Shown here piece after piece: positions 5,747 through 49,690 of a stretch of 64,000 nt of DNA (position 1 is its first letter; the number at the start of each line of letters is the position of its first letter). Position numbers and translations under genes: made by a program. Source of the DNA: Hoylesella nanceiensis DSM 19126 = JCM 15639 (lineage in GTDB: Bacteria; Bacteroidota; Bacteroidia; Bacteroidales; Bacteroidaceae); assembly GCF_000379965.1 (NCBI RefSeq), contig NZ_KB904327.1, positions 248,001 through 312,000 of the forward strand. The letters run 5' to 3'. The notes below the pieces were generated by a model, which saw only the letters and a program-made list of their open reading frames with translations, was not told the DNA's origin and searched no databases.

Positions 5747-5834
5747 AAAAGCATTCCTTTTGTGTAGTAAACTCAATTTATTTACATCTTAAAAACAGTG
5801 CTTTTACATCTGTAAATCACTGCTTTTATAAAAT
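5747..5834 (+). repeat. 22-bp tandem array A (4 units)
   Basis: Four contiguous 22-base units start at 5747, 5769, 5791 and 5813. The third, AAAAACAGTG-CTT-TTA-CATCTG, shows the pattern best; the first is AAAAGCATTC-CTT-TTG-TGTAGT. The second and fourth are more diverged but keep the register. This is the weakest of six arrays that share the period, the core AAwAGCAwTG and the TTA at unit positions 14-16. It lies between the sigma-factor terminator and the hexosaminidase promoter. Confidence 0.7.
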
Positions 5835-6098
5835 TCTGAAACAATTCTTTTAAACTATTCCTATCAAAATGCATTTTAATGATAAATCATTTTAATTTTT
5901 ATAGAAGGTAAAAAGGTCTGTTTAAAGCCATATTCTGTTACTTTTACAAAATAAAATGGGTGTGTTTTATCATCTAACAATAGCACTATTAATTTTGTTT
6001 ATGCTATTTATACTTGCTCATTTCCAGAAGAAATATTTTCTTTACAAATGAAAACCCAACCTAATTCGATGTAAAAGACAAAAAGTAGGTGTTTAAAA

Positions 6099-6129
6099 TT
6101 TGTCCGCTTGTAACTTTTATTTATATTTG
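6099..6129 (+). promoter_or_regulatory. Promoter of the hexosaminidase gene: TTTG-N19-TATATTTG
   Basis: The -33 TTTG at 6099-6102 and -7 TATATTTG at 6122-6129 have the ideal 19-base spacer. The predicted start is near 6135, about 355 bases before the start codon at 6492, so the mRNA would have an unusually long 5' leader. Between array A (ending 5834) and this promoter I see only AT-rich sequence. Confidence 0.7.
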
Positions 6130-6367
6130 CACTGCTCTGAGGTGATAAAAATCAAGAATTAACTTTCAATGATAATAGAATTGATTGCATGGAAAATAAT
6201 ATAGAAGACGTATTAATTTGAGTTTAATCGTTTACTATATAATTAGGTTCCTACTAATAATTTATACCTATTCTGGGCAACCAACAGATATATATAGATA
6301 TATCTTACCACTTGATATCACCACTTCTACTAAGGGATGAGGCTTCAAAGAGGATAGAGATTACTTG

Positions 6368-6433
6368 TTACCAATCCAATCTAGAATGCTTTCTTTAACT
6401 AAAGATAATTGGAAACGAAATCCAGGTTGGTAA
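6368..6433 (+). promoter_or_regulatory. Nested stem-loop in the long hexosaminidase leader
   Basis: Three concentric inverted repeats: TTACCAA (6368-6374) with TTGGTAA (6427-6433), TCCAAT (6375-6380) with ATTGGA (6408-6413), and TCTTT (6392-6396) with AAAGA (6401-6405) around an AACT loop. The first two stems stack directly on the 5' side. No known riboswitch family was recognised. A regulatory role is inferred from position, about 60 bases before the start codon. Confidence 0.35.
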
Positions 6434-6491
6434 TAGATGTGTAACGGAGAAATATTTTTAGAGACGAAACATAAATAACTATTTTAAGACA

Positions 6492-8141
6492 ATGTGTATT
6501 AAAAGATTACAATTAGTAGTGATTGGTCTTCTTTTCTCACTGTGTAGTTTTGCAGGAAAACAACCAGTTGGGAATTGGAACACCATTCCATTAGCTCAAA
6601 GTATTGAGCCGTTAAAAGAGAAGAACTTTGTATTGAATGGCAAAACAACAATCTATTGTCCTGATAATGCAAATGAATTACAAAAACGTAACGTTGAATT
6701 TCTCATTTCATATATAGAAGAAGTGACAGGAATGAAGTTGAAGGAGAATTCTAAGTTGACAAATAATCAAATTCGATTGTCACTTAATTCGTCTATCAAA
6801 GGAAACGAAGCGTATGAGATTAAGGCAACTCCAAAGGTGTTAATGCTATCGGGAAGCACTCCTGCAGGTGTGTTCTATGGTTTGCAAACATTGACTAAAG
6901 CATTGCCAATAGCAAAGAATGTGAAACAAGTTGAATTACCTTCTGTTATAATTTCAGATTCTCCACGCTTTGTTTATCGTGCTTTTTTGATCGATGTAGG
7001 TAGACATTTCTTTAGTATCGAATACTTAAAGAAGCTCATAGATATGTTTGCATTGCACCATATCAACTATTTCCATTGGCATTTAACTGAAGATCAAGGT
7101 TGGAGAATAGAAATAAAGAAATATCCTAAGCTAACAGAAATAGGCTCAAAGCGTACTGAAACGGTTCTACCTGGTGACAAAGGATATGATGGAACGCCTG
7201 TAAGTGGATACTATACTCAAGAAGAAGCACGTGAACTTGTGAAGTATGCGGCTGACCGTTTTATTACTATTATTCCAGAAATAGATATGCCTGGGCACAT
7301 ACAATCTGCGTTAGCTGCATATCCAGAGCTAGGATGTACTGGTGGACCATATCCTGTTTGTACTCATTTTGGCGTTATTAAAGAAGTTCTTTGTGCTGGA
7401 AATCCTAAAGCATTGCAGCTTGCAAAGGACGTTGTGAATGAGATTATGGATATCTTTCCATCAGAGTATATTCATCTTGGAGGTGACGAATGTCCTAAAG
7501 ATAGATGGAAAGAATGTGCTAAGTGTCAGCAAAAAATAAAGAACTTAAACCTAAAAGATGAAGAAAAACACTCGAAAGAAGAGTTGCTTCAGACTTGGTT
7601 TATGGGCGAATTAGAAAAGGATATTCGTGCAAGAGGTCGTAAAATGATTGCTTGGGACGAGATCTTAGATGGCTCTCCTTCGAAAACTGTGACTGTAATA
7701 GGATGGACTTCGAAAGATGCTTCTATTCGTTCTGCTCGTCAAGGTTATCCTACTGTAGTTGCACCAATTACCAATTTCTATTTCAGTAACCCACGAATCA
7801 ACAAAATAGAAGGTATTCCTAGTATTCAAAGAGTTTACGACTTAGATCCTTGTTTCGATGTATTAACTCCTGAAGAACAAAAGAATATAATTGGAGCAGA
7901 GGGCTGTATTTGGACTGAATGGGTGAAAGATAGTACTAAGTTGGAATGGCAATTGCTTCCAAGACTTGCAGCTTTGTGTGAAGTTCAATGGACACCTAAG
8001 GATAAAAGAAATCTTGATAACTTCTTATCACGTATGTTCCATATGCAAGAGTTGTATCAACTTAAGAATATGAATTATAGAAAAGACATTGGGGAAGATG
8101 TCTTAAAATCAAAAGACAATAAAGTTGTTTTCTGTAAATAA
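6492..8141 (+). CDS. Beta-N-acetylhexosaminidase (GH20), secreted
   Basis: Removes terminal beta-linked N-acetylhexosamine from glycans by substrate-assisted catalysis. The 549-residue protein has a signal peptide (residues 1-21, ending CSFA), a GH20b N-terminal domain (about 22-155) and the GH20 barrel (about 160-515). Landmarks are YRAFLIDVGRHFFS, HWHLTEDQGWRIEI, PEIDMPGHIQSALAAYP and the catalytic Asp-Glu pair in HLGGDECPKDRWK (near 331). It is monocistronic, with its own promoter and long leader, and shares a bidirectional terminator with rpe. It is expected in the periplasm or on the outer membrane, feeding on host mucin or N-glycans. Confidence 0.94.
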   Translation: MCIKRLQLVVIGLLFSLCSFAGKQPVGNWNTIPLAQSIEPLKEKNFVLNGKTTIYCPDNANELQKRNVEFLISYIEEVTGMKLKENSKLTNNQIRLSLNSSIKGNEAYEIKATPKVLMLSGSTPAGVFYGLQTLTKALPIAKNVKQVELPSVIISDSPRFVYRAFLIDVGRHFFSIEYLKKLIDMFALHHINYFHWHLTEDQGWRIEIKKYPKLTEIGSKRTETVLPGDKGYDGTPVSGYYTQEEARELVKYAADRFITIIPEIDMPGHIQSALAAYPELGCTGGPYPVCTHFGVIKEVLCAGNPKALQLAKDVVNEIMDIFPSEYIHLGGDECPKDRWKECAKCQQKIKNLNLKDEEKHSKEELLQTWFMGELEKDIRARGRKMIAWDEILDGSPSKTVTVIGWTSKDASIRSARQGYPTVVAPITNFYFSNPRINKIEGIPSIQRVYDLDPCFDVLTPEEQKNIIGAEGCIWTEWVKDSTKLEWQLLPRLAALCEVQWTPKDKRNLDNFLSRMFHMQELYQLKNMNYRKDIGEDVLKSKDNKVVFCK

Positions 8142-8205
8142 GGCAATGATTACTCCTTACAAATAGAATAAGTTCTATTAAATATCAATTTAAGGGAAAT
8201 GAAAT

Positions 8206-8240
8206 AAGGGTGAATCTCAATAGGAGATCACCCTTATTCT
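8206..8240. terminator. Bidirectional terminator between the hexosaminidase gene and rpe
   Basis: A 12-bp-class stem (AAGGGTGAATCTC at 8206-8218 with GAGATCACCCTT at 8224-8235) flanked by A/T runs on both sides, between convergent genes. Confidence 0.75.
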
Positions 8241-8306
8241 TATTTTATAGTTAAGTTGTTACTTGATATTTAATGATAAATAAAGTCTTTTAGTGTATTG
8301 GCTTGA

Positions 8307-8963
8307 TTATTGCTTTACTTGCTTTAAGCTTCTAATTGTCTCTTCAGGATTAGGAGAATTGAATATATAACTACCGCTAACAAGAGCATCTGCTCCTGCA
8401 TCTACTAAGGCTTGAGCATTCTCTCCTTGTACTCCTCCGTCTACTTCAATGATAGTTGATAAGTTTCTTTTATCAATTTCTTGTCGTAGTTGAGCAACTT
8501 TCTTAAGCGCATTGGGTATAAACTTTTGTCCTCCGAATCCCGGATTTACACTCATAATCAAAACCAAATCAAGGTCATCTAGTATATCTTCAAGAACAGA
8601 AACAGGTGTACTAGGATTTAATGCCACTCCTGCTTTCATGCCAGCAGCGTGAATTTCTTGAATAGTTCTATGCAAATGAACGCATGCTTCGTAGTGAACA
8701 CACATTATTTCAACGCCTAGTTTTGCTGTTTGAGCAATATAGTGTTCTGGATGTTCAATCATAAAATGAGCATCAAGTGTCTTTTTACACGCCTTTGCAA
8801 CAGCACTTATTACGGGAAAACCAAAAGAAATGTTAGGTACAAACATACCATCCATAATATCTAAATGAAGCCAATCTGCTTCACTTCTATTGATCATGTC
8901 AATATCTTTCTGTAGATTTATGAAATCTGCAGATAGGAGAGAGGGGGAAATAATTACTTCCAT
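8307..8963 (-). CDS. rpe: Ribulose-phosphate 3-epimerase
   Basis: Interconverts ribulose 5-phosphate and xylulose 5-phosphate in the pentose phosphate pathway. The 218-residue TIM-barrel protein has all family marks: SPSLLSADF at the N-terminus, the metal/catalytic segment HLDIMDGMFVPN (about 33-44), the second metal histidine in DAHFMIEHP, MSVNPGFGGQKF and EVDGGV with the phosphate loop VSGSYIF near the C-terminus. The length is typical. A 43-codon ORF lies 6 bases upstream on the same strand and may be co-transcribed. Confidence 0.96.
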   Translation of the reverse strand: MEVIISPSLLSADFINLQKDIDMINRSEADWLHLDIMDGMFVPNISFGFPVISAVAKACKKTLDAHFMIEHPEHYIAQTAKLGVEIMCVHYEACVHLHRTIQEIHAAGMKAGVALNPSTPVSVLEDILDDLDLVLIMSVNPGFGGQKFIPNALKKVAQLRQEIDKRNLSTIIEVDGGVQGENAQALVDAGADALVSGSYIFNSPNPEETIRSLKQVKQ

Positions 8964-8969
8964 TTAGTT

Positions 8970-9101
8970 TTAGTTTAGACAAATAACCTTCTTGTTGTTA
9001 TTTAAATGAAGAGTTTTATACGAGTAAGCTAATTGACGAATTAGCATTAATGTCTTCTCTGAAGGATTTAATTCTTCTGTAGTAAAAATTTTTATAGGCA
9101 T
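8970..9101 (-). CDS. Small hypothetical protein (43 aa) upstream of rpe
   Basis: An ATG-initiated reading frame of 43 codons with the N-terminus MPIKIFTTEELNPSEKTL, a basic middle and the end NNNKKVICLN. It ends 6 bases before the rpe start, so translational coupling or a shared transcript is likely. The FTxEELxPSxKTLxxIRQ pattern looks like a structured helical microprotein, but I cannot name a family. Support is the operon-like spacing and protein-like composition only. The rest of the 8964-9284 gap holds this ORF and the gdhA terminator. Confidence 0.5.
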   Translation of the reverse strand: MPIKIFTTEELNPSEKTLMLIRQLAYSYKTLHLNNNKKVICLN

Positions 9102-9208
9102 AAAATTTTATTGTTAAATACTATAGTTATAACGCCATTTTATTTCCTTTATTATATAAAAAACTAAATAATTCTATCTTTTTATTTTGACAGAAGAATA
9201 AAATAAAA

Positions 9209-9247
9209 AAGGAGAGTGTACCTTGTAATAAGGTGACACCTTCCTTT
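9209..9247 (-). terminator. Terminator of gdhA
   Basis: An imperfect hairpin (AAGGAGAGTGTACCTT and AAGGTGACACCTTCCTT) that reads into a T run on the minus strand, 38 bases past the gdhA stop codon. Confidence 0.65.
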
Positions 9248-9284
9248 TCAATTCTTAATTACTTATATATTCTTTTTAAAAAGC

Positions 9285-10619
9285 TTATATAATACCTTGT
9301 GCCATCATTGCATTTGCCACTTTTAAGAATCCTGCAATATTTGCACCTTTCACATAATTGATGTATCCATCTGCTTCAGTTCCATATTTAACGCAGTTCT
9401 CATGGATATCATCCATTATGCTATGTAGTTTAGAATCCACTTCTTCACGACTCCAATTCAATCGTTCTGAGTTCTGAGTCATCTCTAATCCAGATACAGC
9501 AACACCGCCTGCGTTAGATGCTTTGCCTGGAGCATATAGTATTTTTGCATCTTGGAACACCTTAATAGCTTCAGGAGTAGTAGGCATGTTCGCTCCTTCG
9601 CTGATCGCAATAACGCCATTTGCAACAAGAGTTTTTGCGTCTTCTTCAGTAATTTCGTTTTGTGTTGCACAAGGAGTAGCGATATCTGCCACTTCACTCC
9701 ATGGTCTTCCCCCTGGTACATACTTCACTCCATATTGCTCAGCATATTCCTTTATTCTTCCACGTTCAATGTTCTTTAGCTCCATTACGAATGCTAACTT
9801 CTCTGAATCAATGCCATCTGGGTCGTAAATATATCCATCAGAATCAGATAAAGTTACAGGAACTGCTCCTAATTCGATAAGCTTTTCAACAGTATATTGA
9901 GCAACATTTCCTGAACCAGAAACAAGAACACGCTTGCCTTTTAGTGACTGATTGCGTGTTTTAAGCATGTTTTGTAGGAAGTAGATATTACCATATCCAG
10001 TTGCTTCAGGACGTATATTAGAACCTCCAAAGTCTTTTCCTTTTCCGGTTAAAACGCCAGTAAAGACATGAGTTAACTTCTTATATTGACCAAACATATA
10101 GCCTACTTCACGACCTCCAACACCAATGTCGCCTGCAGGGATATCTTCATCAGCTCCAATATGACGATAAAGCTCTTGCATAAAGGCTTGACAGAAACGC
10201 ATAACCTCAGCATTACTCTTACCTCGTGGAGAGAAATCTGAACCGCCTTTTGCACCTCCCATAGGAAGAGTTGTTAAGGCATTCTTAAATGTTTGTTCAA
10301 AAGCTAAGAACTTTAAGATAGATAAGTTTACCGACTTATGAAAGCGGATACCACCTTTATATGGACCAATTACATTGTTATGTTGCACTCGATACCCCAT
10401 ATTGGTTTGTACATTACCCTTGTCGTCTACCCATGTTACTCTGAATTGAACAATTCTATCAGGAATACATAGACGTTCAATAAGGTTCACTCTCTCAAAC
10501 TCTGGGTGCTTGTTGTATTCTTCTTCAATTGTTTCTAGCACCTCTGTCACTGCCTGAATGTATTCAGGTTCATTTGGAAACCTTTGTTTAAGAGTTTCTA
10601 ATACTTCATTTGCTTTCAT
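9285..10619 (-). CDS. gdhA: Glutamate dehydrogenase, NADP-type hexameric
   Basis: Assimilates ammonium by reductive amination of 2-oxoglutarate. The 444-residue length matches the small hexameric class. Substrate and catalytic segments are GPYKGGIRFHKSVN (about 88), the catalytic-lysine motif PMGGAKGGSDFSPRGK (about 119) and PAGDIGVGGREVGYMFG (about 162). The Rossmann domain carries VSGSGNVAQYTVEKL (about 232). It appears monocistronic, with its own terminator downstream; no clear TAnnTTTG box was seen just upstream. Cofactor choice (NADP rather than NAD) is inferred from class and length. Confidence 0.95.
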   Translation of the reverse strand: MKANEVLETLKQRFPNEPEYIQAVTEVLETIEEEYNKHPEFERVNLIERLCIPDRIVQFRVTWVDDKGNVQTNMGYRVQHNNVIGPYKGGIRFHKSVNLSILKFLAFEQTFKNALTTLPMGGAKGGSDFSPRGKSNAEVMRFCQAFMQELYRHIGADEDIPAGDIGVGGREVGYMFGQYKKLTHVFTGVLTGKGKDFGGSNIRPEATGYGNIYFLQNMLKTRNQSLKGKRVLVSGSGNVAQYTVEKLIELGAVPVTLSDSDGYIYDPDGIDSEKLAFVMELKNIERGRIKEYAEQYGVKYVPGGRPWSEVADIATPCATQNEITEEDAKTLVANGVIAISEGANMPTTPEAIKVFQDAKILYAPGKASNAGGVAVSGLEMTQNSERLNWSREEVDSKLHSIMDDIHENCVKYGTEADGYINYVKGANIAGFLKVANAMMAQGII

Positions 10620-10751
10620 CTTTACCTTATTTGTTTTTATGTGAACAATTAATTTTTAATACTAATAATGTGTGTAAATAGATGATAATAAACAATCTTA
10701 ATCGTTATTCTATCTCCGTTATTATTCTTTGTTTTAAAATCTTTATGTCTA

Positions 10752-11393
10752 TTATTTCTTTACTTCTTCAAATTGAATATTGATTTTTTGAATTCCCATA
10801 GCCCTAAAAAAGTTCTTCATTTGCATTTCCGCATTCTCTTGGGCAGATGTGATATTCTCCTTTGTCATACATCTATTATAGATACGTTTGTAAGCTTTTT
10901 GATACATTTCTTGGCGTGCTTTGGCGTCCCAAGAACCTTTTTCAAAGAATGAAACCGTTTTAGCCTCATCAATAAAATTATTGTCTAGTAACTTAATCGG
11001 AGGCAATGTGGCAATTAAAGAATCACCTTCTAGTTTTGCCCAGCCTGGTTTTGCATCCCTAAAGTTTATGCCTAAATGAAGCGTTCCATAGTAAATACGA
11101 ACCAATTCTGCATCTCCAAAGAAGCCATGTCGAGTGGAATCAACCATTTCTTCTGTACTAATAGAAAGGAATTCCCATTCTCCAAGAGTCTTAATTTGTT
11201 GGATTTGAGTTACTGTAAATCCCGTATTTTCATTGTCATTTACACCAATAGAAGTCTTTCTTATACTGAAAAATATAAGAAGAGCCACTACAACTACAGC
11301 GCAAATAGCTAATATCAAGATATTACTTCTTTTAAAAAGCCATCTTAAAAGCAACTCTTTTATTTTATTAGATTTATTTTCCTGCTGATTCAT
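10752..11393 (-). CDS. DUF4230 family membrane-anchored protein
   Basis: A 213-residue protein with a short charged cytoplasmic N-terminus, one membrane helix at about 25-44 (ILILAICAVVVVALLIFF) and an extracytoplasmic domain of the DUF4230 type. Typical family stretches are IKTLGEWEFLSISTEE, YYGTLHLGINF, ATLPPIKLLDNNFID and the C-terminal helices ending in MGIQKINIQFE. The function of DUF4230 is unknown. Its start overlaps the end of the next upstream gene (11374-12051) by 20 bases, and the two proteins share the domain, so they look like co-translated paralogues. Confidence 0.75.
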   Translation of the reverse strand: MNQQENKSNKIKELLLRWLFKRSNILILAICAVVVVALLIFFSIRKTSIGVNDNENTGFTVTQIQQIKTLGEWEFLSISTEEMVDSTRHGFFGDAELVRIYYGTLHLGINFRDAKPGWAKLEGDSLIATLPPIKLLDNNFIDEAKTVSFFEKGSWDAKARQEMYQKAYKRIYNRCMTKENITSAQENAEMQMKNFFRAMGIQKINIQFEEVKK

Positions 11394-12051
11394 TTCGTGT
11401 TATTGTATTGGTTATTAACGATGAAGCATTGTTGCTATTAAGTTCTTTTCTAAATGTTATTGTGATGTTTTCTTCCTTAAATCCTAAGCCAACAAAAATA
11501 GGTATGAGTGTTTTTGCTGCACTTATGCGTGCCAGTTCTAATACATCTAACTTAGGAATATCTTTTATTATTGCCTTTCTTCCTTCTTGTTCATAGTGTG
11601 CTAGCTCTTCATCTGTAAAGTTACTGCGCATAAGAGCAACATATTGTTTGATATTAGAATGATCTATGCGAGAAGAAGTAAGGGTTAATTGTGGATCGGG
11701 CAATATAATATTTATTTGATCTTTGTTGCGTATTATATTGGAAGAAGAAAAATTATTAAAGTCGACGTAGGCTTTAATTGTTGCATCAAGAGGTATGGCC
11801 AGCTTGCGTTGGCTTACAGGAAGCTTTACGTTAAACGATTGATTGAGAAATGTTCCTGATATTTCTTTATCATCGGTGTGGGTTATTATCTTTCTAACTT
11901 TTACTTCTGCAGAATATAAGCGAGAACATTTTTGAACCTGAGTAACTAACATTGGAATGGTGTCTATACTCTCAGGAGCATCTAATGTTTTATTCTTTTT
12001 ACATCCTAATAATAGAAATACAAATAGAATAGCAATACTTAATACCTTCAT
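11374..12051 (-). CDS. DUF4230 family lipoprotein
   Basis: A 225-residue protein with a lipoprotein signal (FVFLLLGC, cysteine near 17). The mature part has the DUF4230 layout: VTQVQKCSRLYSAEVKVRKI, then IILPDPQLTLTSSRID (the counterpart of ATLPPIKLLDN in the downstream partner) and a C-terminal LVGLGFKEENITITFRK-like segment. It overlaps the partner gene by 20 bases. A -7 box TATCTTTG lies 23 bases upstream on the minus strand (12074-12081). Function is unknown; a lipid-anchored and a helix-anchored member may form a complex. Confidence 0.75.
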   Translation of the reverse strand: MKVLSIAILFVFLLLGCKKNKTLDAPESIDTIPMLVTQVQKCSRLYSAEVKVRKIITHTDDKEISGTFLNQSFNVKLPVSQRKLAIPLDATIKAYVDFNNFSSSNIIRNKDQINIILPDPQLTLTSSRIDHSNIKQYVALMRSNFTDEELAHYEQEGRKAIIKDIPKLDVLELARISAAKTLIPIFVGLGFKEENITITFRKELNSNNASSLITNTITRNESAGK

Positions 12052-12073
12052 ACCTTTATGATTTGAGTCGATG

Positions 12074-12142
12074 CAAAGATAATAAAATAATGTAGAAATA
12101 AAATAATTAAGTACTTTATTTTATGAAAAAGTTTTATCTTTG
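12074..12142. promoter_or_regulatory. Divergent promoter pair between 12051 and 12273
   Basis: Two -7 boxes with the same TATCTTTG sequence, one on the minus strand (12074-12081) facing the DUF4230 pair and one on the plus strand (12135-12142) facing the cysteine-rich secreted protein. Neither has a clear TTTG -33 box. The plus-strand start would give a leader of about 125 bases. Confidence 0.55.
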
Positions 12143-12272
12143 CATCTGAAATAGTGGTAAACTATCATTTAATTACTTATTATATAGTAGGTGATATTGT
12201 AGAAAAGTGATATTTTAATGGTATAAATTGCTATAAATTTAAAATTAAGAATTAAAGAAAAGGAGATTTATT

Positions 12273-12902
12273 ATGAAAAAAATGATGTTAGCATTGGTTG
12301 CAATGTTTGCGTTAAGCTCAGCAACTTTTGCTCAAGAATGTTGTAAAAAAGACGGAGAAAAGAAAGAAGTTAGTAAAGCAGATTTCGCTCAAAAGCGCAC
12401 AGAACAAATGGCTGAACGCTATGGTTTAAATAGCGATCAAAAGGCAAAATTACTTGCTGTAAATACTGCTTTCTTTGAAAAATATGGCAAAAAATGCAAT
12501 GGTTGCCCAAACAAAGAACAAGCAAACAAAGATTGTTGCGACAAAAAACAAGAAGCAAAGCAAGATTGCTGTAAAGACAAAAAAGAATGTTCAAAGAAAG
12601 ACGAAGCAGCAAAAGGCGACAAAAAAGATTGTTGTAAAAAGGCTAATAACGGTCAGCCAGTAGCTAAAAAGTGCGAAAAGGACGGAAAAGAATGTTCTAA
12701 AGACGCTCAAAAAAAAGGCGAATGCCCAAAAAGTAGTTGTGAGAAAGAAAACAACAAAGAACAAGTAAAGGCTGATGTAGCAAAGTATAAGAGCGACTTA
12801 AAGCAAATCTTTACAAAAGAACAATACGAAAAATACGAGAATGATATAAAGGAAAGACAAGAACGTCTTAAAGCTGCAATGGAAAAGAAACAAGCAGAGT
12901 AA
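12273..12902 (+). CDS. Secreted cysteine/lysine-rich protein, DUF4890/Spy-like
   Basis: A 209-residue secreted protein with a signal peptide (1-20, ending TFAQ). The flanks resemble the Bacteroidetes DUF4890 or Spy/CpxP-like helical repeats: KRTEQMAERYGLNSDQKAKLLAVN (about 41-65) and DLKQIFTKEQYEKYENDIKERQERL near the C-terminus. Between them lies a low-complexity insert (about 75-160) packed with Lys, Glu and Cys, containing repeated DCC pairs and KEC/CPK units, more than 20 cysteines in all. Such clusters suggest periplasmic metal binding or redox buffering; that is inference. It is monocistronic with its own promoter and terminator. Confidence 0.75.
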   Translation: MKKMMLALVAMFALSSATFAQECCKKDGEKKEVSKADFAQKRTEQMAERYGLNSDQKAKLLAVNTAFFEKYGKKCNGCPNKEQANKDCCDKKQEAKQDCCKDKKECSKKDEAAKGDKKDCCKKANNGQPVAKKCEKDGKECSKDAQKKGECPKSSCEKENNKEQVKADVAKYKSDLKQIFTKEQYEKYENDIKERQERLKAAMEKKQAE

Positions 12903-12960
12903 TATTTCAACTCAATTGTTTTATTTATAACCTGTATTCATTCTTGAATTGAAGTTATAA

Positions 12961-13003
12961 ACCGACACATTCCAATAAAAAAGAATGTGTCGGTCTTTTT
13001 TTA
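12961..13003 (+). terminator. Strong intrinsic terminator
   Basis: A perfect 12-bp stem (ACCGACACATTC at 12961-12972 with GAATGTGTCGGT at 12983-12994) followed by a long T run. It ends the cysteine-rich protein gene. Confidence 0.9.
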
Positions 13004-13016
13004 CACTATTTCTTTG

Positions 13017-13024
13017 TATCTTTG
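13017..13024 (+). promoter_or_regulatory. -7 box TATCTTTG
   Basis: This box directly follows the terminator and predicts a transcript start near 13030. Upstream in-frame start codons of the next gene are therefore unlikely to be used, and the start at 13059 is preferred. Confidence 0.6.
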
Positions 13025-13058
13025 CGCCCAAAATAATACTATTTTTATTTTAGTACAA

Positions 13059-13664
13059 ATGAAAAGAATTATGAACAAGACGTTATTCTATGCCTTTTTT
13101 GTTGCGGCTTTTGCTCTTTTACAAGTTGGATGTGCCAAGAAAAAGGAAACAACCAACATTATAACTCATAAAGAGAAGAAACAAAAGCCTAAGCCAACAC
13201 AAAAAGTGGGTGACTTTTCACAGACAAGAACCATCTCATGGTTAGGCAGTAATATTAGAATTACTACAGAACGTGTGGCGGATAAAAGTCTTTCTATTGT
13301 TCAAGATGAAAATGGAAATAAGTATTATGACAATAAAATCATATTGAAAATACAACGTGCTGATGGCTCAATGTTCTTAGAACGAGTGTTTTATAAATCA
13401 GATTTCTCTAAATTTATAGATGCTTCTGCGGATAAAACAACAGCTCTTCTAGGAGTCGTTTTTGATAGAGTAGATGGCGATCACTTAATATTTGCTGCAA
13501 GTGTTGGTTCACCTGATAAAATAAGTGACGAGTTTATCCCACTTGTTTTGAAAGTTTCTAAATCAGGTAGCTTATCAATGTATAGAGATTCTCAAATGGA
13601 TACCAACGATGGTAGCGTTCCAATAGGGGCAAATACTACTGATGAGGAAGAAGAAGGAGTATAG
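13059..13664 (+). CDS. Lipoprotein, possibly DUF4738 family
   Basis: The open frame extends upstream to 12987, but that part lies before the promoter and over the terminator, so I place the start at 13059 (an alternative ATG is at 13071). The resulting 201-residue protein has a lipoprotein signal (LLQVGC, cysteine near 25) and a mature beta-rich domain: TRTISWLGSNIRITTERV, FLERVFYKSDFSKFI, LLGVVFDRVDGDHLIFAASVGSP and EFIPLVLKVSKSGSLSM. It ends in an acidic tail. This resembles Bacteroidales DUF4738 lipoproteins, an assignment I hold loosely. Function is unknown. Confidence 0.7.
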   Translation: MKRIMNKTLFYAFFVAAFALLQVGCAKKKETTNIITHKEKKQKPKPTQKVGDFSQTRTISWLGSNIRITTERVADKSLSIVQDENGNKYYDNKIILKIQRADGSMFLERVFYKSDFSKFIDASADKTTALLGVVFDRVDGDHLIFAASVGSPDKISDEFIPLVLKVSKSGSLSMYRDSQMDTNDGSVPIGANTTDEEEEGV

Positions 13665-13698
13665 AACTAGATTATAAAAAGAAATAAAATAGAAAAGT

Positions 13699-13735
13699 AA
13701 ATGGTAGCTTCTTATGTTGAGAAGTTACCATTTTT
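13699..13735 (+). terminator. Intrinsic terminator
   Basis: The hairpin AAATGGTAGCTTCT / AGAAGTTACCATTT with loop TATGTTG is followed by TTTT. It lies 35 bases after the lipoprotein stop and before array B. Confidence 0.8.
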
Positions 13736-13806
13736 CTTGTTTATGTATTATAAAAACTCTTTCCATCATAACGTGGTTGTTTTTAAAGATTCTTCTTTTG
13801 CTATAT

Positions 13807-13894
13807 AAAAACAATGCTTTCACATTGCAATAGTAATGTTCTTATAAGCAAAAAGTAATGCTTTTAAAATGTAAAAGCATTACTTTTATTATAT
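13807..13894 (+). repeat. 22-bp tandem array B (4 units)
   Basis: Units start at 13807, 13829, 13851 and 13873. Examples are AAAAACAATG-CTT-TCA-CATTGC and AAAAGTAATG-CTT-TTA-AAATGT. The 10-base core is kept in all four with single changes, and positions 14-16 read TTA or a near variant. The array lies between convergent genes, after the lipoprotein terminator and 42 bases before the sulfatase stop codon. Confidence 0.8.
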
Positions 13895-13936
13895 GAATAT
13901 AACTAATTAATTATCTGGATATTAATAAAAATAACC

Positions 13937-15454: not shown

Positions 15455-15659
15455 AAAACGAGTATAATAGCGTGTTTAGAGTGTAAAGATAGCTATTTAT
15501 TTTGTTTTTATAAGTATCTTTGTAAGTGTTTTTTCAGAATACCATTGTTATACATCAATAAACTACCCCGCTATGTAATTTTGTTGAGTTTTATGGTGCT
15601 TATGGTATGATATTTGATGCTTTTCCTATCAAGAAATAAAATAACATAGGAGATTAATT

Positions 15660-17573: not shown

Positions 17574-17639
17574 TGATTAGATAATAAAAGAAGATTGTTC
17601 TTATTAAAATGCTTTCTCTTTTACACTAGAATATCAATA

Positions 17640-25130: not shown

Positions 25131-25220
25131 TGCTCACTTTATAGCTTTTCTTTACCTCCTCATTTACTCTTCACTTTTACCTCTTTGTAATAATTCTCTT
25201 GTTACATTTTATTTCATTCT

Positions 25221-25308
25221 AAAAGCATAGAGTTTGCAATGTAATAGCATTGCTTTTATGATCTAATAGTGTTGCTTTTACAAGTCAAAAGCATTGATAT
25301 TGAATTGA
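25221..25308 (+). repeat. 22-bp tandem array C (4 units)
   Basis: Units start at 25221, 25243, 25265 and 25287. Examples are AATAGCATTG-CTT-TTA-TGATCT and AATAGTGTTG-CTT-TTA-CAAGTC. The array lies after the POT terminator and about 100 bases before dinB. All four units keep the AAwAG start; the outer two have TTG at positions 14-16. Confidence 0.8.
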
Positions 25309-31244: not shown

Positions 31245-31309
31245 ATAAAAAAAGATCATATGACACCTTATTATGTTTATTGTTTTTACTTATTAAATTA
31301 TTCGTTTAT

Positions 31310-31397
31310 AAAAGCAATGAAATTAGGGCGTAAAAACAATGTAATTAGAAGATAAAAGCATTGCTTTTAAGGAGTAAAAGTGATGCAGTTAGAATGG
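31310..31397 (+). repeat. 22-bp tandem array D (4 units)
   Basis: Units start at 31310, 31332, 31354 and 31376: AAAAGCAATG-AAA-TTA-GGGCGT, AAAAACAATG-TAA-TTA-GAAGAT, AAAAGCATTG-CTT-TTA-AGGAGT and AAAAGTGATG-CAG-TTA-GAATGG. This array shows the conserved core and the TTA most cleanly. Both flanking genes are on the minus strand, yet the units read on the plus strand like the other five arrays. Confidence 0.85.
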
Positions 31398-37081: not shown

Positions 37082-37096
37082 GAAATAAATTTAAGA

Positions 37097-39311: not shown

Positions 39312-39339
39312 TAATATAGATTTTATTTATTTTAGAGTT

Positions 39340-39390: not shown

Positions 39391-39403
39391 TTTTATACAC
39401 ATC

Positions 39404-40237: not shown

Positions 40238-40616
40238 TTTCTGAGTCATTTTGTAATTCCTTTTAAAATAGGTGTGACTTTCTGTTTACCCGTGTGGTGT
40301 ATAGTATGTACTTCAATAAGTACCAAGTAAATTCTAATTTAGTTTATTTGACCTTATCTTTACAACATTCTTTGTGGTTTGTTGTTCATTAATTGTATTC
40401 TTTATCCTTCTTTTTCTTGGGAAGAGATTTGCTTTCGTACTTTAATAAGACCTTTTATTAAAGCTATTTTATATCTAATATATAATGAGTTACTACATGT
40501 TTTACGTTTTTTGTTGCTCCTTGATTACTCAAAGTATGATGTTTTCATCTCAAGATATATTGTTCATCATAAATTCATCTGTGAGTTTATATCTCAATTC
40601 TATTTTTCTTCCTTCC

Positions 40617-40704
40617 AATATCATTGCTTTTATGTCTCAAAAGCATTGTTATTACACTGCAATAGTATAGCTTTTGTAATGCAATATCATTAACATTGTG
40701 CAAT
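40617..40704 (+). repeat. 22-bp tandem array E (4 units)
   Basis: Units start at 40617, 40639, 40661 and 40683, for example AAAAGCATTG-TTA-TTA-CACTGC and AATATCATTG-CTT-TTA-TGTCTC. The array sits in the 550-base gap between the GH25 gene and the Omp85 gene; the rest of that gap is AT-rich sequence without recognised features apart from the Omp85 promoter. Confidence 0.8.
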
Positions 40705-40775
40705 GAGTCTGTGTAATTCACTACTTTTTATATGCTTTTAAAAGAATTTATTATCAGCAATTGGGGTATTATTTG

Positions 40776-40783
40776 TATTTTTG
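40776..40783 (+). promoter_or_regulatory. -7 box TATTTTTG of the Omp85-family gene
   Basis: The last G is 5 bases before the ATG at 40788, which predicts a leaderless transcript. Confidence 0.55.
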
Positions 40784-40787
40784 CGGT

Positions 40788-43016: not shown

Positions 43017-43018
43017 AA

Positions 43019-43053
43019 AAATAAAGGGGATTATCAATTAATCCCCTTTATTT
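43019..43053. terminator. Bidirectional terminator between the Omp85 gene and mscL
   Basis: A perfect 15-bp stem, AAATAAAGGGGATTA (43019-43033) with TAATCCCCTTTATTT (43039-43053), between convergent genes. Confidence 0.85.
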
Positions 43054-43064
43054 GTGTTTTATCA

Positions 43065-43448
43065 TTATTTATTCTTAAGTAAATCTCTGATTTCAGTAAG
43101 AAGTTTTTCTTCTGTTGAAGGTTCAGGAGCAGCTGCTGGAGCTTCTTCTTCTTTCTTCTTAAAGCTGTTAATACCTTTAATTAGTAAGAAGATACAGAAT
43201 GCTACAATGATGAAGTCGATGATATTCTGAATGAATAGACCATAACCAATGTTTGCATCTCCTACAGTTACAGCTAGTTTAGAGAAGTCTATTCCACCTG
43301 TAACGGTACCAATAAGAGGCATAAGGATATTATCAACAAGTGAAGAAACAATCTTACCGAATGCTGCGCCGATTATAACACCGACTGCCATATCTAACAC
43401 ATTACCTCGCATTGCGAAGTCTTTGAACTCATTTAAAATTTTACTCAT
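43065..43448 (-). CDS. mscL: Large-conductance mechanosensitive channel
   Basis: Pentameric emergency release valve in the inner membrane. The start at 43448 gives a 127-residue protein of normal length; the frame is open upstream, but that part overlaps the promoter region. Motifs: [27 protein letters not shown] with TM1 (about 8-34), [15 protein letters not shown] loop, TM2 (about 70-95, [20 protein letters not shown]) and the C-terminal helical bundle [15 protein letters not shown]. Its promoter is divergent from that of gapA. Confidence 0.94.
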
Positions 43449-43486
43449 ACTTAAGTTTTTGTTTAAATTAATCTTGAAAACTTCTG

Positions 43487-43514
43487 CAAATATAGAAACT
43501 TTTTTGTAACTTTG
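43487..43514. promoter_or_regulatory. Back-to-back mscL and gapA promoters
   Basis: The minus-strand -7 box TATATTTG (43487-43494) serves mscL, with a leader near 33 bases. The plus-strand -7 box TAACTTTG (43507-43514) serves gapA, with a leader near 110 bases. The boxes are 12 bases apart, so each promoter's upstream half overlaps the other and polymerases would compete. Confidence 0.55.
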
Positions 43515-43629
43515 CTGCGTAAAGAGGGGAGAAAATCTCCAATTACATATGAAAAAGGTCCAAAATGGATTTTTATTGAAATAAAACGACAAAATAAATA
43601 AATTTAAACCTTTAAATAAGTAAGTATAA

Positions 43630-44649
<1,020 letters not shown>

Positions 44650-44671
44650 TATTAGTAGTTATCTAACATAT

Positions 44672-44708
44672 AAAAGCTATTCAGTATTTGCTGGATAGCT
44701 TTTTTTTT
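44672..44708 (+). terminator. Intrinsic terminator of gapA
   Basis: The hairpin AAAAGCTATTCAG / CTGGATAGCTTTT has the loop TATTTG and a run of T residues to 44708. The loop supplies the -33 box of the following miaA promoter. Confidence 0.85.
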
Positions 44709-44717
44709 ATATATTTG
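44687..44717 (+). promoter_or_regulatory. miaA promoter embedded in the gapA terminator
   Basis: The -33 TTTG (44687-44690) lies in the terminator loop, the 19-base spacer is formed by the terminator 3' arm and T run, and the -7 TATATTTG is at 44710-44717. The predicted start is near 44723. Confidence 0.65.
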
Positions 44718-44738
44718 CAAGAAGATATCTCGAATGGC

Positions 44739-45692
44739 ATGAAATATAAAATGATAACAATCTTAGGACCAACAGCGAGTGGAAAAACTAGCTTGGCGGC
44801 TGCACTTGCTTATCATCTCGATGCTGAAATAATAAGTGCAGACAGCAGACAGGTTTATCAGGGTATGGATATTGGGACAGGAAAGGATCTTGCAGATTAT
44901 ATAGTTGCAGGTAAACACATTCCTTATCATCTAATAGATATATTCAAGGCAGGTTCTAAGTATAATGTTTATCAATATCAACAAGATTTCTTAGAGGTAT
45001 ATAATAAAATAAAAGAAGCGAACAAGCTTCCTATATTATGTGGTGGTTCAGGTCTTTATCTTGAGGCAATCTTAAAGGGATATCATTTATCTACAGTTCC
45101 TCCAAACGAAGAATTAAGAAAACAACTTAACGATATGGCGCATGAATCTCTTATTCAAATGCTTGTAGAAATACAAGAGCAGTTGAATACGAAGATGCAT
45201 AATTCTACAGATTTAGATTCTAAGCAGAGAACAATAAGGGCTATCGAGATTGGTAAGCACATGCTAACAGAGGCTGATCCCAAAACAAACTTCCCTGAAA
45301 TTCCATCATTAATAATAGGTGTAGATATTGATAGGGAGGAAAGAAGGCGTAAAATCACAACTCGACTTCATCAACGTTTAGAAGAGGGTATGATAGAAGA
45401 AGTGAAGCAATTACTCAATCAAGGGATAGCACCTGAAGACCTTATATATTATGGTTTAGAGTATAAATTCGTTACAGAGCATATCATAGGAAAGTTACCC
45501 TATGACGAAATGATTCGACAATTGGAAATTGCAATCCACCAATTTGCTAAAAGACAGATGACTTGGTTTCGTGGAATGGAACGAAGAGGAATCAAAATTA
45601 ACTGGATAAATGCAAGTTTACCGTTGGAAGAAAAGATAGAAATGATACAAACACTTTATAAAGAAGGGAATAAAGATGAGTCTAAATACTGA
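44739..45692 (+). CDS. miaA: tRNA dimethylallyltransferase
   Basis: Adds the isopentenyl group to A37 of tRNAs that read UNN codons. The start at 44739 follows the predicted transcript start near 44723 (an alternative ATG is at 44751). The 317-residue protein has the P-loop ILGPTASGKTSLAAAL, ISADSRQVYQGMDIGTGK, PYHLIDIFKAGSKYNVYQY, CGGSGLYLEAIL and RQMTWFRGMERRGI. It overlaps the next gene by 17 bases, so translation is probably coupled. Confidence 0.94.
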   Translation: MKYKMITILGPTASGKTSLAAALAYHLDAEIISADSRQVYQGMDIGTGKDLADYIVAGKHIPYHLIDIFKAGSKYNVYQYQQDFLEVYNKIKEANKLPILCGGSGLYLEAILKGYHLSTVPPNEELRKQLNDMAHESLIQMLVEIQEQLNTKMHNSTDLDSKQRTIRAIEIGKHMLTEADPKTNFPEIPSLIIGVDIDREERRRKITTRLHQRLEEGMIEEVKQLLNQGIAPEDLIYYGLEYKFVTEHIIGKLPYDEMIRQLEIAIHQFAKRQMTWFRGMERRGIKINWINASLPLEEKIEMIQTLYKEGNKDESKY

Positions 45693-46626
45693 TAATTCTA
45701 CCAAGTGGGGGGTTCTGTTTTGTCCTTCACAAAACATTTGGAACAGCGATAAAAGATATAAAGAGATTAAGGAGCTTCTTGATTCTAATGATGTTATGTA
45801 TGATATTTTCACTGCAGAAACATCAGATAGGGTGCAATATGTTTCTAAAATGTGTATCAATAATAATTATAAAACGATTGTTATTGTGGGAGGTGATCAT
45901 GCCCTTAACGACTTTATAAATGTGTTATTCTCTTATGAAAACGATATTATCAAGACCATTTCTTTCAGTATTATTCCTGATGGAGTAATGAATGACTTTG
46001 CCTTTTTCTGGGATGCTAAGGAGAAAGATGAAGATAATATCATTAAGTCTATAAAGAAAAACAGAGTTAGAAAGATTGATGTTGGACTTCTACAATACAC
46101 CAATGGTAAAGGAGAAGCATGCCGTCGATATTTCTTAAACAGTATAAATATAGGCTCAATAGCTTATGTAATGGGAATAAAGAGTAAGATGAATAATATC
46201 TTTTCTTCTCGTTTCTTCTCATTTTTATTATCTTTCTTTTTTCTTCTTTTTAAGAGTTTCGAGTATAAAATGTCGCTTAAAACCGATCAAGAAGATATGC
46301 CAAACAAGTTTATGGCATTGTGCATAGGCAACTGTCGTGGCTATGGACAAACCCCAAATGCAGTTCCTTATAATGGAACTCTAGATGTATCACTCGTTAC
46401 AAAAGAAAAGGTTAGTCAGCTATTTAAAGGAATTTATCTGTTTATTAGAGGTAAGTTCTTGAATTATAAACATATATCAGTATATCGAACAACTAAAGTA
46501 GAGATAGAAGAAATTGCCAAAGCACCTATCACAATTGATGGCCGTTCAATGAAATTACCTATGAGCAAAGTAATGATAACTATAAAGAAAGAAATAGTAA
46601 ATTTCATTATTCCAAAGATTTTGTAA
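45676..46626 (+). CDS. Diacylglycerol/sphingosine kinase-like protein with modified nucleotide loop
   Basis: A 316-residue protein with the diacylglycerol kinase catalytic fold. The usual GGDGTxND loop reads GGDHALNDF (about 73), and the second motif PxGTxNDFA reads PDGVMNDFAFFW. The C-terminal half has VPYNGTLDVSLV and ITIDGRSMKLP, as in lipid kinases of this class. The altered loop may be a lineage feature of a Bacteroidetes subfamily, since I believe related proteins show similar changes. The substrate is unknown. It overlaps miaA by 17 bases. Confidence 0.72.
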   Translation: MSLNTDNSTKWGVLFCPSQNIWNSDKRYKEIKELLDSNDVMYDIFTAETSDRVQYVSKMCINNNYKTIVIVGGDHALNDFINVLFSYENDIIKTISFSIIPDGVMNDFAFFWDAKEKDEDNIIKSIKKNRVRKIDVGLLQYTNGKGEACRRYFLNSINIGSIAYVMGIKSKMNNIFSSRFFSFLLSFFFLLFKSFEYKMSLKTDQEDMPNKFMALCIGNCRGYGQTPNAVPYNGTLDVSLVTKEKVSQLFKGIYLFIRGKFLNYKHISVYRTTKVEIEEIAKAPITIDGRSMKLPMSKVMITIKKEIVNFIIPKIL

Positions 46627-46740
46627 TGTCGTTTATTCCTTCTTTTCATTAAGATAGAGTGGGTTGTGAAGAAAATAAGATACTTTTTGTGATATAATAT
46701 TAAAGAAAAACTATCTTTTCATCAACTCACATATTTTCTT

Positions 46741-46748
46741 TATCTTTG
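46741..46748 (+). promoter_or_regulatory. -7 box TATCTTTG of pyrK-pyrD
   Basis: The box is 25 bases upstream of the pyrK start at 46773, with a TTTT-type -33 about 20 bases further up. Confidence 0.6.
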
Positions 46749-46772
46749 CACATTAATTATTATACAAACAAA

Positions 46773-47549
46773 ATGAAAAAGTTTTGCCTAGATTTAACCG
46801 TTGTTTCCGTGTCGAAAATAAACGACCGTTATGTGCTAATTAAGCTTACACATAATGAAGAACTACCACAAATGGAACCAGGACAGTTTGTTGAAGTGCG
46901 TGTAGATGGTTCTCCTACAACCTTTTTGCGCCGCCCAATTTCAATCAATTTTATAGATAGAAAGAATAATCAGCTTTGGTTATTGGTGGCAACGGTAGGA
47001 GATGGAACACATAAAATGGCACAACTAAAAGAAGGAGAGATACTTAATTGTGTACTACCATTAGGTAAATCATTCACAATGCCGCAACAACCACAAGAAA
47101 AGTATTTATTAGTTGGAGGTGGAGTAGGTACAGCTCCAATGCTTTATCTAGGTGAACAATTAAAGAAAATGGGATGTACTCCCACATTTTTGTTAGGTGC
47201 TCGCTCTCAAAAAGATCTTCTTGAACTTGAATACTTTGAGCCATTAGGCAGACTCTTTGTTACTACTGAAGATGGAACTGCAGGCGAAAAAGGATTTGTA
47301 ACCAATCATTCCATATTGCAAAACGAAACTTTCGATAGAATATGCGTGTGCGGTCCAACTCCAATGATGAAGGCAGTGGCTCAATATGCACGTCAAAATA
47401 ATATCGAATGTGAAGTTTCTTTAGAGAATATGATGGCTTGTGGTGTTGGAGCATGCTTGTGTTGTGTAGAAAAAACCACAGAAGGTAATTTATGTGTGTG
47501 CACTGATGGACCTGTATTTAATATCAAACAACTGTTATGGCAAAGCTAA
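46773..47549 (+). CDS. pyrK: Dihydroorotate dehydrogenase B, electron-transfer subunit
   Basis: Flavoprotein that passes electrons from dihydroorotate dehydrogenase to NAD. The start at 46773 follows the -7 box. The 258-residue protein has FAD-binding [10 protein letters not shown] (about 51), the NAD-binding [19 protein letters not shown] (about 112), [11 protein letters not shown] and a C-terminal 2Fe-2S cysteine set in [19 protein letters not shown] plus a later CVCTDGPVF. It overlaps pyrD by 13 bases, so the two subunits are translated together. Confidence 0.95.
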
Positions 47550-48448
47550 ATGTAAACATCAATAAGCTGGAATTAAAGAATCCAGTGATGACTGCTTCTG
47601 GAACATTTGGTTACGGATTAGAATTTAACGACTTCATTTCAATAGATGAAATAGGTGGTATCATTGTTAAAGGAACAACTTTAGAGCCTCGCCAAGGTAA
47701 TGACTATCCTCGTATGGCTGAAGTTCCTTCGGGTATGTTGAATTGCGTTGGACTTCAAAATAAGGGTGTAGAATATTTCTGTTCCAACATATATCCACAG
47801 ATAAAGGATATCAACACCAACATGATTGTGAATGTGAGTGGTTCTACTTTAGAAGATTATGCATCATGTGCAGCACGTATCAACGAACTAGATAACATAC
47901 CAGCAATAGAATTAAACATCTCTTGTCCTAATGTAAAGGCGGGTGGAATGGCTTTTGGTGTAACCGCATCGGGAGCTGCAAGTGTAGTTAAAGCAGTAAG
48001 AGAGGTGTATGATAAGACGCTTATTGTGAAACTATCACCCAATGTAACAAGTGTTGTTGATATTGCAAAGGCTTGTGAAGATGAAGGAGCTGATAGTGTT
48101 TCATTAATCAATACTTTAATGGGAATGGCAATAGATATCGAAAAGAGAAAGCCAATATTAAGTATTGCTACTGGCGGATTGAGTGGACCTGCAGTAAAAC
48201 CTGTTGCTTTACGCATGGTTTGGCAAGTTGCTAAAGCCGTGAACATTCCTGTTATTGGTTTAGGAGGAATAAGCTCGGCAACCGATGCTATTGAGTTTTT
48301 GATGGCAGGAGCAACTGCAATTCAAATAGGAACAGCTAATTTTTTAGACCCAACAATAACTATAAAGGTTCGTGATGGAATCAATCAATGGTTAGATGAA
48401 CATAATATATCTGATGTAAATGATATTATCGGGAGTCTTAATGCATAA
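47537..48448 (+). CDS. pyrD: Dihydroorotate dehydrogenase B, catalytic subunit
   Basis: Fourth step of UMP biosynthesis, class 1B (NAD-linked through PyrK). The 303-residue TIM-barrel protein has [15 protein letters not shown] (about 14), [15 protein letters not shown], the active-site cysteine motif [14 protein letters not shown] (about 124), [19 protein letters not shown] and [31 protein letters not shown] with the FMN-phosphate site. The 104-base gap to the next gene shows no terminator I could identify. Confidence 0.96.
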
Positions 48449-48552
48449 ATCTTAATGAGATAAGACAAAAGCATCAAGAGTATAAATACTTGATGTATTC
48501 AGGATAAAAGAATTGAAAAACAAATAGATTTACGAAACTAAAAAAGAAGAAT

Positions 48553-49476
48553 ATGAATAAAATGAAATGGTTATTTGTTTCGTTACTAGCATCAGTTATG
48601 CTGGCTTGCGGAACAACAAGTACTGTGCCCATAACAGGACGCAAGCAACGTTTATTGGTTTCTGATGAACAAATTCTATCGTTAAGTAATCAACAATACC
48701 GCCAATATATGGCAAAAGCTAAGGTTTCAACCAATCCAACCAACACTGCAATGGTGAAAAGAGTAGGTCAAAGACTAGCAAATGCGGTTACAACCTATCT
48801 TTCTGCTAATGGACTTGGGGCGGAAGTGAAGAACTATCAATGGGAGTTTAACCTTGTACAAGATAATGCAGCCAATGCATTTTGTATGCCTGGAGGAAAG
48901 ATTGTAGTGTATGAAGGCTTGTTACCATATACAAAAGATGAAGCTTCTTTAGCTATTGTGCTTGGTCATGAAATTGCTCATGCTGTAGCAAAACACTCTG
49001 CAGAACGACTAAGTAAGCAACTACAACAACAATATGGAGCAAATATCTTAGGAACAGTTTTAGGTGCAAGCGGTGCAAGTTCAGGTATTTCTCAAGTTGC
49101 TCAAATGGGTTTTGGCTTGGGTAGTCAACTTAATACTCTTAGATATTCAAGAAAGAACGAGAGTGAAGCAGATTATATGGGACTTGTTTTTGCTGCAATG
49201 GCAGGATATGACCCACGAGTTGCTGTTAGTTTTTGGCAAAGAATGGCTGCTGGAAAACAAAGTTCTCAACCTGAATTCTTAAGTAGTCACCCTTCTGACT
49301 CTAAGCGTATTGCTGATATTCAACGTGAATTGCCAGAGGCTTTGAAATACTATAAAGGTGGAAGTGCAACCACCACCACTTCAACAACGACTACAAAATC
49401 AAATTATAAGTCAAACAACACTGGTTCAATCTCTGTTAATGACTTATATAAGTCGACAAAGAAAAACAAACGATAA
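48553..49476 (+). CDS. M48-family metalloprotease, lipoprotein
   Basis: A 307-residue lipoprotein (signal ASVMLACG, cysteine near 19) with an M48 catalytic domain. The zinc motif is VLGHEIAHAVAKH (HExxH, about 138) with the third ligand region NESEADYMGLVFAAMAGYDP (glutamate near 205). FLSSHPSDSKRI is typical for LoiP/BepA-like outer-membrane quality-control proteases. The C-terminus is a Thr/Ser-rich tail followed by SVNDLYKSTKKNKR. It probably degrades misfolded outer-membrane proteins at the inner leaflet. Confidence 0.9.
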   Translation: MNKMKWLFVSLLASVMLACGTTSTVPITGRKQRLLVSDEQILSLSNQQYRQYMAKAKVSTNPTNTAMVKRVGQRLANAVTTYLSANGLGAEVKNYQWEFNLVQDNAANAFCMPGGKIVVYEGLLPYTKDEASLAIVLGHEIAHAVAKHSAERLSKQLQQQYGANILGTVLGASGASSGISQVAQMGFGLGSQLNTLRYSRKNESEADYMGLVFAAMAGYDPRVAVSFWQRMAAGKQSSQPEFLSSHPSDSKRIADIQRELPEALKYYKGGSATTTTSTTTTKSNYKSNNTGSISVNDLYKSTKKNKR

Positions 49477-49514
49477 GTAAACTTTTAAGTAGCTTTTAAA
49501 GCTCAATTGAAATA

Positions 49515-49560
49515 AAAAGAGGTTCATCAATGATTGTGTTGATGAACCTCTTTTGTTTTG
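49515..49560 (+). terminator. Intrinsic terminator of the M48 protease gene
   Basis: A perfect 16-bp stem, AAAAGAGGTTCATCAA (49515-49530) with TTGATGAACCTCTTTT (49539-49554), followed by GTTTTG. It lies 20 bases before array F. Confidence 0.9.
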
Positions 49561-49580
49561 TCTAAATTAAATGTCCTTAT

Positions 49581-49690
49581 AATAGCAATGAGTTTACCAT
49601 ATAAAAGCAATGAGTTTACCATATAAAAGCAATGCTATTACTATGTAAAAGCATAATAATTGGATCTTAAAAGCACTTCTATTATTTAGT
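49581..49690 (+). repeat. 22-bp tandem array F (5 units)
   Basis: Units start at 49581, 49603, 49625, 49647 and 49669. The first two are identical except for one base (AATAGCAATG or AAAAGCAATG followed by AGT-TTA-CCATAT), which shows recent duplication by a whole unit. The third is AAAAGCAATG-CTA-TTA-CTATGT. It lies between convergent genes. From 49691 to 49856 I see nothing further. Confidence 0.88.

Follow-up and report, generated by a model that had tools for sequence, protein, structure and literature searches.

Arrays of a 22-bp unit

The window, by which we mean the whole 64,000-nucleotide stretch analysed here, lies at positions 248001–312000 of contig C1 of Hoylesella nanceiensis DSM 19126. 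Six of its intergenic regions hold arrays of 22-bp units, arranged head to tail, with five units in the last array and about four in each of the others (Table 1). The start of the first array and the end of the last are identical to those given in the original prediction, which was made from the window alone. A self-match lag scan (66-base comparison frame, threshold 38) returns nine segments at lag 22, distributed over the six places, and no or one segment at each other lag from 15 to 39. In 454 kb including the window, there are 41 segments at lag 22, 23 at its harmonic 44 and at most four at the other tested lags.

Table 1. Arrays of 22-bp units in the window (positions are those of the window).
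Array	Position	Strand	Units	Matrix extent	Score (bits)	Location
1	5747..5834	.	four	5733-5831	61	between open reading frame ending at 5600 and GH20 gene
2	13807..13894	.	four	13795-13888	79	convergent spacer, DUF4738 gene / sulfatase gene
3	25221..25308	.	four	25210-25307	84	between POT/MFS transporter gene and impB/mucB-family polymerase gene
4	31310..31397	.	four	31299-31396	70	between radical-SAM gene and DUF6621 gene
5	40617..40704	.	three full, weaker fourth	40611-40691	70	between GH25 gene and Omp85 gene
6	49581..49690	.	five	49575-49699	93	convergent spacer 3' of M48 peptidase gene

A 22-column weight matrix, for which one set of 452 kb served both as training and as scanned sequence, detects 53 arrays at 25 bits or more, against none with the reversed matrix. 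At 20 bits the numbers are 65 arrays, none reversed and seven in first-order Markov sequence; at 18 bits, 93 arrays and five reversed. When the whole genome is searched allowing up to two mismatches, the 16-base core gives 489 forward matches (two in the reversed control) and a longer two-site pattern 533 (none in the control). The six arrays in the window are confirmed as real. Both the excess at lag 22 and the further arrays, on which the original prediction had made its case depend, are present, and the matrix and pattern scans bear out its view of a dispersed, intergenic family extending through the genome.

Anatomy and constraint of the unit

Each unit can be written approximately as YAAWAGCAWTGCTWTTR followed by a 5-bp linker. 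The matrix is dyad-symmetric, with two centres located 11 bp apart. The AA of columns 0 and 1 (0.96 and 0.98) is mirrored by the TT of columns 13 and 14 (0.97 and 0.95), columns 8–10 mirror columns 4–6, and the Y at column 21 mirrors the R at column 15, while the five columns of the linker show a weak preference for CAWTG. The unit had originally been described as a ten-base core with a separate TTA, without mention of symmetry; it is in fact a single dyad-symmetric site, and the TTA forms the outer edge of its right half-site. Within half-sites of the type AA-nnn-CA only certain triplets occur, the second and third bases of which are interdependent, both at columns 3–4 and at columns 10–11. 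AAAAGCA, AATAGCA, AATAACA, AATTGCA and AAACTCA are among these half-site synonyms.

The arrays span 3.5 to 4.5 units by the matrix in 76 of 103 cases, with a range of 2 to 7.5, and the previously reported lengths of exactly 88 and 110 bp result from framing by hand. Base agreement is 0.598 between neighbouring units; between different arrays it is 0.571 for units in general and 0.579 for those of equal rank. Likeness within arrays is thus barely higher than between them, so that neither recent tandem duplication nor recent copying of a single element accounts for the arrays.

A sister genome (G276) has 90% DNA identity with ours in the radical-SAM gene and mostly 87–95% in aligned blocks, and 21 of the 103 arrays can be aligned to it together with their flanks. 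Whole arrays differ at 14.3% of positions, no less than the flanks (14.0% of 5832), but the changes are unevenly distributed over the columns. The AA and TT columns changed at 16 of 348 positions and the linker at 104 of 439 (Fisher test, p = 1e-14); AA and TT, the most constrained columns, thus have about five times fewer changes than the linker and three times fewer than flanking DNA. Intermediate values were obtained for the core (63 of 490), for columns 2, 3, 11 and 12 (39 of 335) and for the flanking R and Y columns (39 of 176, of which 27 are transitions). Twelve of the aligned arrays contain no insertion or deletion, eight have changes of 1–4 bases and one an 18-base change. The register, which had been said never to slip, is therefore very stable but not perfect; that the step is maintained while the sequence drifts holds true.

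Half-sites that are identical, and hence self-complementary, are avoided within the unit, both in our genome (14 of 386, against 34.7 expected, standard deviation 4.6) and in the sister (20 of 401, against 35.4, standard deviation 4.7). The same is seen across the linker, with 12 of 283 (23.1 expected) in our genome and 17 of 295 (26.1 expected) in the sister; half-sites that share an orientation are not depleted. Depletion of self-complementary half-sites is also found in G108 (0 against 11.4) and G012 (0 against 3.8), making four of the five genomes tested. Complementary partners are below expectation at nine of ten symmetric column pairs, and there is no compensatory stem pairing of the intrinsic-terminator kind, pairing being at or below chance. 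The avoidance of self-complementary half-sites favours a dimer that reads the site as duplex DNA and disfavours a conserved hairpin.

Chromosomal spacing and relatives in other genomes

Genes were called with a simple purpose-made caller, and 98 of the 103 arrays are located between called genes, 34 in convergent, 47 in tandem and 17 in divergent spacers. On contig C1, spacers of at least 200 bp hold an array in 24 of 31 convergent, 11 of 31 divergent and 34 of 94 tandem cases. The arrays occur chromosome-wide and adjoin genes of many kinds, at a median distance of 132 bp from the stop side of a gene (n = 115).

The arrays are evenly spaced along the chromosome, a property that had escaped the original prediction. 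As a null model, spacers were redrawn within orientation and length classes in 5000 draws. On contig C1 (712 kb, with arrays in 76 of 287 spacers) the mean gap is 9.2 kb and the coefficient of variation (CV) of the gaps is 0.49, against 0.80 in the null (0 of 5000 draws). Gaps shorter than 4 kb number four instead of 20.4 (0 of 5000 draws), and the largest gap is 26.8 kb instead of 36.6 kb (p = 0.039). With a 40-bit cut-off the CV is 0.56, against 0.77–0.87. The observed and null values are 0.33 and 0.77 for G070 (p < 0.001), 0.41 and 0.72 for G012 (p = 0.011) and 0.46 and 0.73 for G108 (p = 0.022), and even spacing extends to parts of the sister genome, with 0.54 and 0.71 (p = 0.035), 0.63 and 0.78 (p = 0.039) and 0.65 and 0.88 (p = 0.047) for three of four segments. 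Short-range exclusion between arrays is firm, while support for the absence of long gaps is moderate.

When contig C1 is compared with the sister genome, gene order is scrambled around the terminus, in blocks with a median of 5.7 kb that keep their orientation to replication; synteny is also interrupted at array 4 of the window. Fifteen arrays are located within aligned blocks or at their edges; 13 of them have a sister array in place, and both misses are at block edges. Arrays are present in 43 of 90 of our spacers at synteny breaks and in 16 of 330 collinear ones (Fisher test, 1e-20). By spacer length, the corresponding numbers are 5 of 15 and 1 of 24 for 200–300 bp and 16 of 21 and 2 of 14 for 300–450 bp, while no difference is seen for 450–700 bp (13 of 22 and 4 of 6). 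In the sister, 11 of 75 break spacers and 15 of 330 collinear spacers hold an array (p = 0.003 ignoring length, the length classes being inconsistent). In outgroup loci, the adjacency is found for one of 21 testable breaks of our genome, for none of 18 breaks of the sister and for 15 of 49 collinear pairs. Shufflon-like site-specific recombination, an early lead, was weakened, most matching sister block ends having no array. The sister also contains an array-free stretch of 80 kb (contig C1, about 138000–218000) that holds relaxase and conjugative TraM genes; ten of its 29 listed proteins were scanned, nine of which have a Pfam family. Four further array-free stretches of 39–46 kb are present in the same genome.

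The pattern of our arrays is found in 54 of 299 genomes of the genus (ours included), with high counts in G276 (393), G063 (230), G192 (151), G199 (102), G012 (83), G215 (65), G070 (50) and G006 (34). None of 294 other genomes of the order has more than two such matches. Exact matches, among the matches listed, come from Hoylesella saccharolytica, Prevotella oulorum, P. illustrans, P. ruminicola KHT3 and many metagenome-assembled genomes from the rumen; those listed from other groups, such as Chryseobacterium, are taken to be due to chance. A scan of G192 gave three arrays in 137 kb and two with the reversed matrix. A phage origin was discarded, just one stretch with an exact match having been found in viral contigs (plasmids were not searched).

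Other genomes have arrays with the same period and another sequence. G016, in which the pattern of our arrays is absent, has 22-bp-period arrays built around TTGMNKCAA; a two-unit pattern of this type matches 159 times there (once in the control), 52 times in G198 (control 2) and 33 times in G310 (control 0). Some match is found in 163 of the 299 genomes, mostly near the control level (G287 has two, with 15 in the control). In G229, TTGACTCAA-type arrays are present at seven places. A different consensus on the same 22-bp period means that the step is more widespread than the sequence; in no fewer than three further genomes it has persisted where the sequence has not.

The original prediction knew of no named family of this form, and did not note a possible kinship to PINSR, a published repeat that may be a named relative. 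According to passages of PMC4755523, PINSR is a 188-bp intergenic repeat of P. intermedia, present 177 times in one strain and 184 times in another; about three quarters of the regions are common to both strains, and it is mostly absent from strain-specific mobile regions. Like our arrays it is intergenic and dispersed; unlike them it is described there as a single 188-bp repeat belonging to one species group, and "22-bp" does not occur in the main text of that paper. Two of the genomes compared, G108 and G017, contain a dispersed element of about 190 bp at no fewer than 40 near-full-length places each (40 of 296 and 40 of 334 candidates were scored; the match rows number 75 and 60, many places being counted twice, once per strand). 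In G108 this element contains four to five 22-bp units of the same design as ours, and it has no match at E = 1e-5 in our genome or in the sister (40 of 47 and 40 of 44 candidates scored). From its length and dispersal, the G108 element may be PINSR or a near relative, although its density of 19 arrays in 140 kb would extrapolate to above the copy number given in those passages.

Interpretation and comparison with known systems

The symmetry of the sites, their column-wise constraint, the avoidance of self-complementary half-sites, the location outside genes, the even spacing, the retention of position between species and the lack of arrays in the sister's stretch with conjugation genes lead us to propose that each array is an operator cluster for a putative dimeric DNA-binding protein that organises the chromosome, a reading to which we give a probability of about one half. 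An array would provide around four operators for one such protein, and their distance of two helical turns would place the dimers on one face of the duplex, where they could bind jointly. The arrays would act for the entire chromosome, by anchoring or delimiting domains of about 8–12 kb, rather than for the adjoining genes. The sequence read by the protein would change between species, with the 22-bp step remaining. Of the two possibilities raised in the original prediction, a regularly spaced binding array is thus the best reading; the data do not show a protein polymer.

More tentatively, and perhaps with somewhat less than even chances, the arrays may form a genus-wide lattice, of about one array per 8–12 kb, set by an architectural protein of Prevotella whose specificity turns over fast; the two-turn step would be kept, as would the two-fold symmetry and the domain length. 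If true, this would be a bacterial case of fast co-evolution of site and protein on a fixed architecture. Bacterial chromosomes are held to be organised in domains of roughly 10 kb, and we know of no sequence that sets the domain borders in most species. The measured step, symmetry and even spacing would give a direct handle on such borders and allow capture of the protein with a single oligonucleotide, and the arrays of different species would be a natural series with a constant step and a changing recognised sequence.

Several observations weigh against the operator-cluster proposal. In the sister genome, the segment edges were picked by us to exclude the 80-kb gap; with the gap included the first 425 kb are not even (CV 1.24, against 0.89), nor is the whole sampled 1.14 Mb (1.03 against 0.93, p = 0.86), and neither is the fourth segment, which does not contain the gap (0.76 against 0.80, p = 0.43). 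The terminus half of the sister (contig C1, about 433000–958000) has around half the array density of the rest of the sampled chromosome. In our genome evenness is lost at a 55-bit cut-off (CV 0.97, against 0.83–0.90), and this dependence on the cut-off implies that weak arrays fill gaps. The scarcity of long gaps is the weaker effect, with p = 0.039 in our genome, 0.003 in G070, 0.065 in G012 and 0.10 in G108. For G012, G070 and G108 the DNA that was scored had also served to retrain the matrices (which detect 15, 15 and 19 arrays, and 1, 0 and 0 when reversed), and G070 does not avoid self-complementary half-sites (three, with 2.9 expected). Finally, searches for the Y1 transposase, ParB, HU-HIG proteins and array-flanking families did not find the binding protein. 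The Y1 transposase (PF01797) is present in only one of nine array genomes (G016), and absent from ours. ParB (PF02195) has one match in each of eight of these genomes, with no family member beyond the housekeeping protein, and two in G063, where one lies at the edge of a contig. Our genome has four matches to HU-HIG proteins, three above the cut-off, which do not discriminate. Seven families flank arrays in three genomes each, the maximum for any family.

One of the array-flanking families resembles a tyrosine recombinase by eye.

The arrays might instead be sites of topoisomerase action and supercoil relief between transcription units, comparable to tandem repetitive extragenic palindromic (REP) sites of bacterial interspersed mosaic elements (BIMEs), which bind gyrase in Escherichia coli. 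The preference for convergent spacers and the location outside genes speak for this, and even spacing would suit it; however, the REP-associated (RAYT-type) Y1 transposase is missing from eight of the nine array genomes, self-complementary half-sites are avoided and the sequence shifts between species although gyrase is conserved, so that we regard it as unlikely. Should the arrays be a selfish or mobile repeat, spread by copying, their spacing could come from close copies deleting each other. Copying has happened in G108 and G017, to judge by the fairly homogeneous 190-bp element, and PINSR is treated as an amplified repeat in passages of PMC4755523. In our genome, units agree hardly better within arrays than between them, the columns are under constraint, most arrays in or beside aligned blocks are in place in the sister and none is present in its 80-kb stretch with conjugation genes, which together make this explanation distinctly doubtful.

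That the arrays are recombination or fragile sites of chromosome rearrangement would account for their enrichment at our synteny breaks, seen in the 200–450 bp spacer classes, and some P. intermedia inversions lie between PINSRs (passages of PMC4755523). But longer spacers show no such difference, the link in the sister is inconsistent by length, an agreement of 0.57 between arrays is little for homologous recombination, and the blocks keep their orientation to replication, as they would after inversions around the terminus. We consider this quite improbable. Least of all do we expect elements acting in RNA, such as terminators or processing hairpins: many arrays do lie 3' of genes, and two of the six in the window fold better than 199 or 200 of 200 shuffled sequences (z = -2.8 and -5.7), but the other four have z values from 0.18 to -1.85, the window has no Rfam match, divergent spacers also hold arrays, and complementary partners and identical half-sites are under-represented, as described above.

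Among known systems, REP, BIME and REPIN elements with their RAYT proteins are dispersed intergenic palindromic units, as the arrays are, from which the latter differ by the missing Y1 transposase, the avoided self-complementarity and the fixed 22-bp step. The sites of ParB/Noc, SlmA and MatP are short dyad sites across the chromosome, each read by an architectural protein; the likeness lies in the scattered dyad sites, but those sites are single, whereas our arrays have about four in tandem and eight of the nine array genomes encode one ParB. BrickBuilt of Porphyromonas gingivalis, as described in passages of PMC4596501, is a 23-nucleotide repeat inside a miniature inverted-repeat transposable element (MITE) with terminal inverted repeats, with 19 copies in strain ATCC 33277. 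It resembles our arrays in having intergenic head-to-tail units of similar length in a relative, and differs in unit size, in its unrelated sequence and in the MITE context; with an agreement of 0.60 within arrays, ours do not have the near-identical tandem units of the BrickBuilt or MITE kind. No description of these arrays was found in open-access papers, judged from titles and abstract openings, and passages of PMC5771137 and PMC12306157 do not mention such arrays.

Apart from the arrays, the window contains no tRNA gene, and a tandem repeat of period 33 is present at 12489–12587, where it overlaps a called coding frame.

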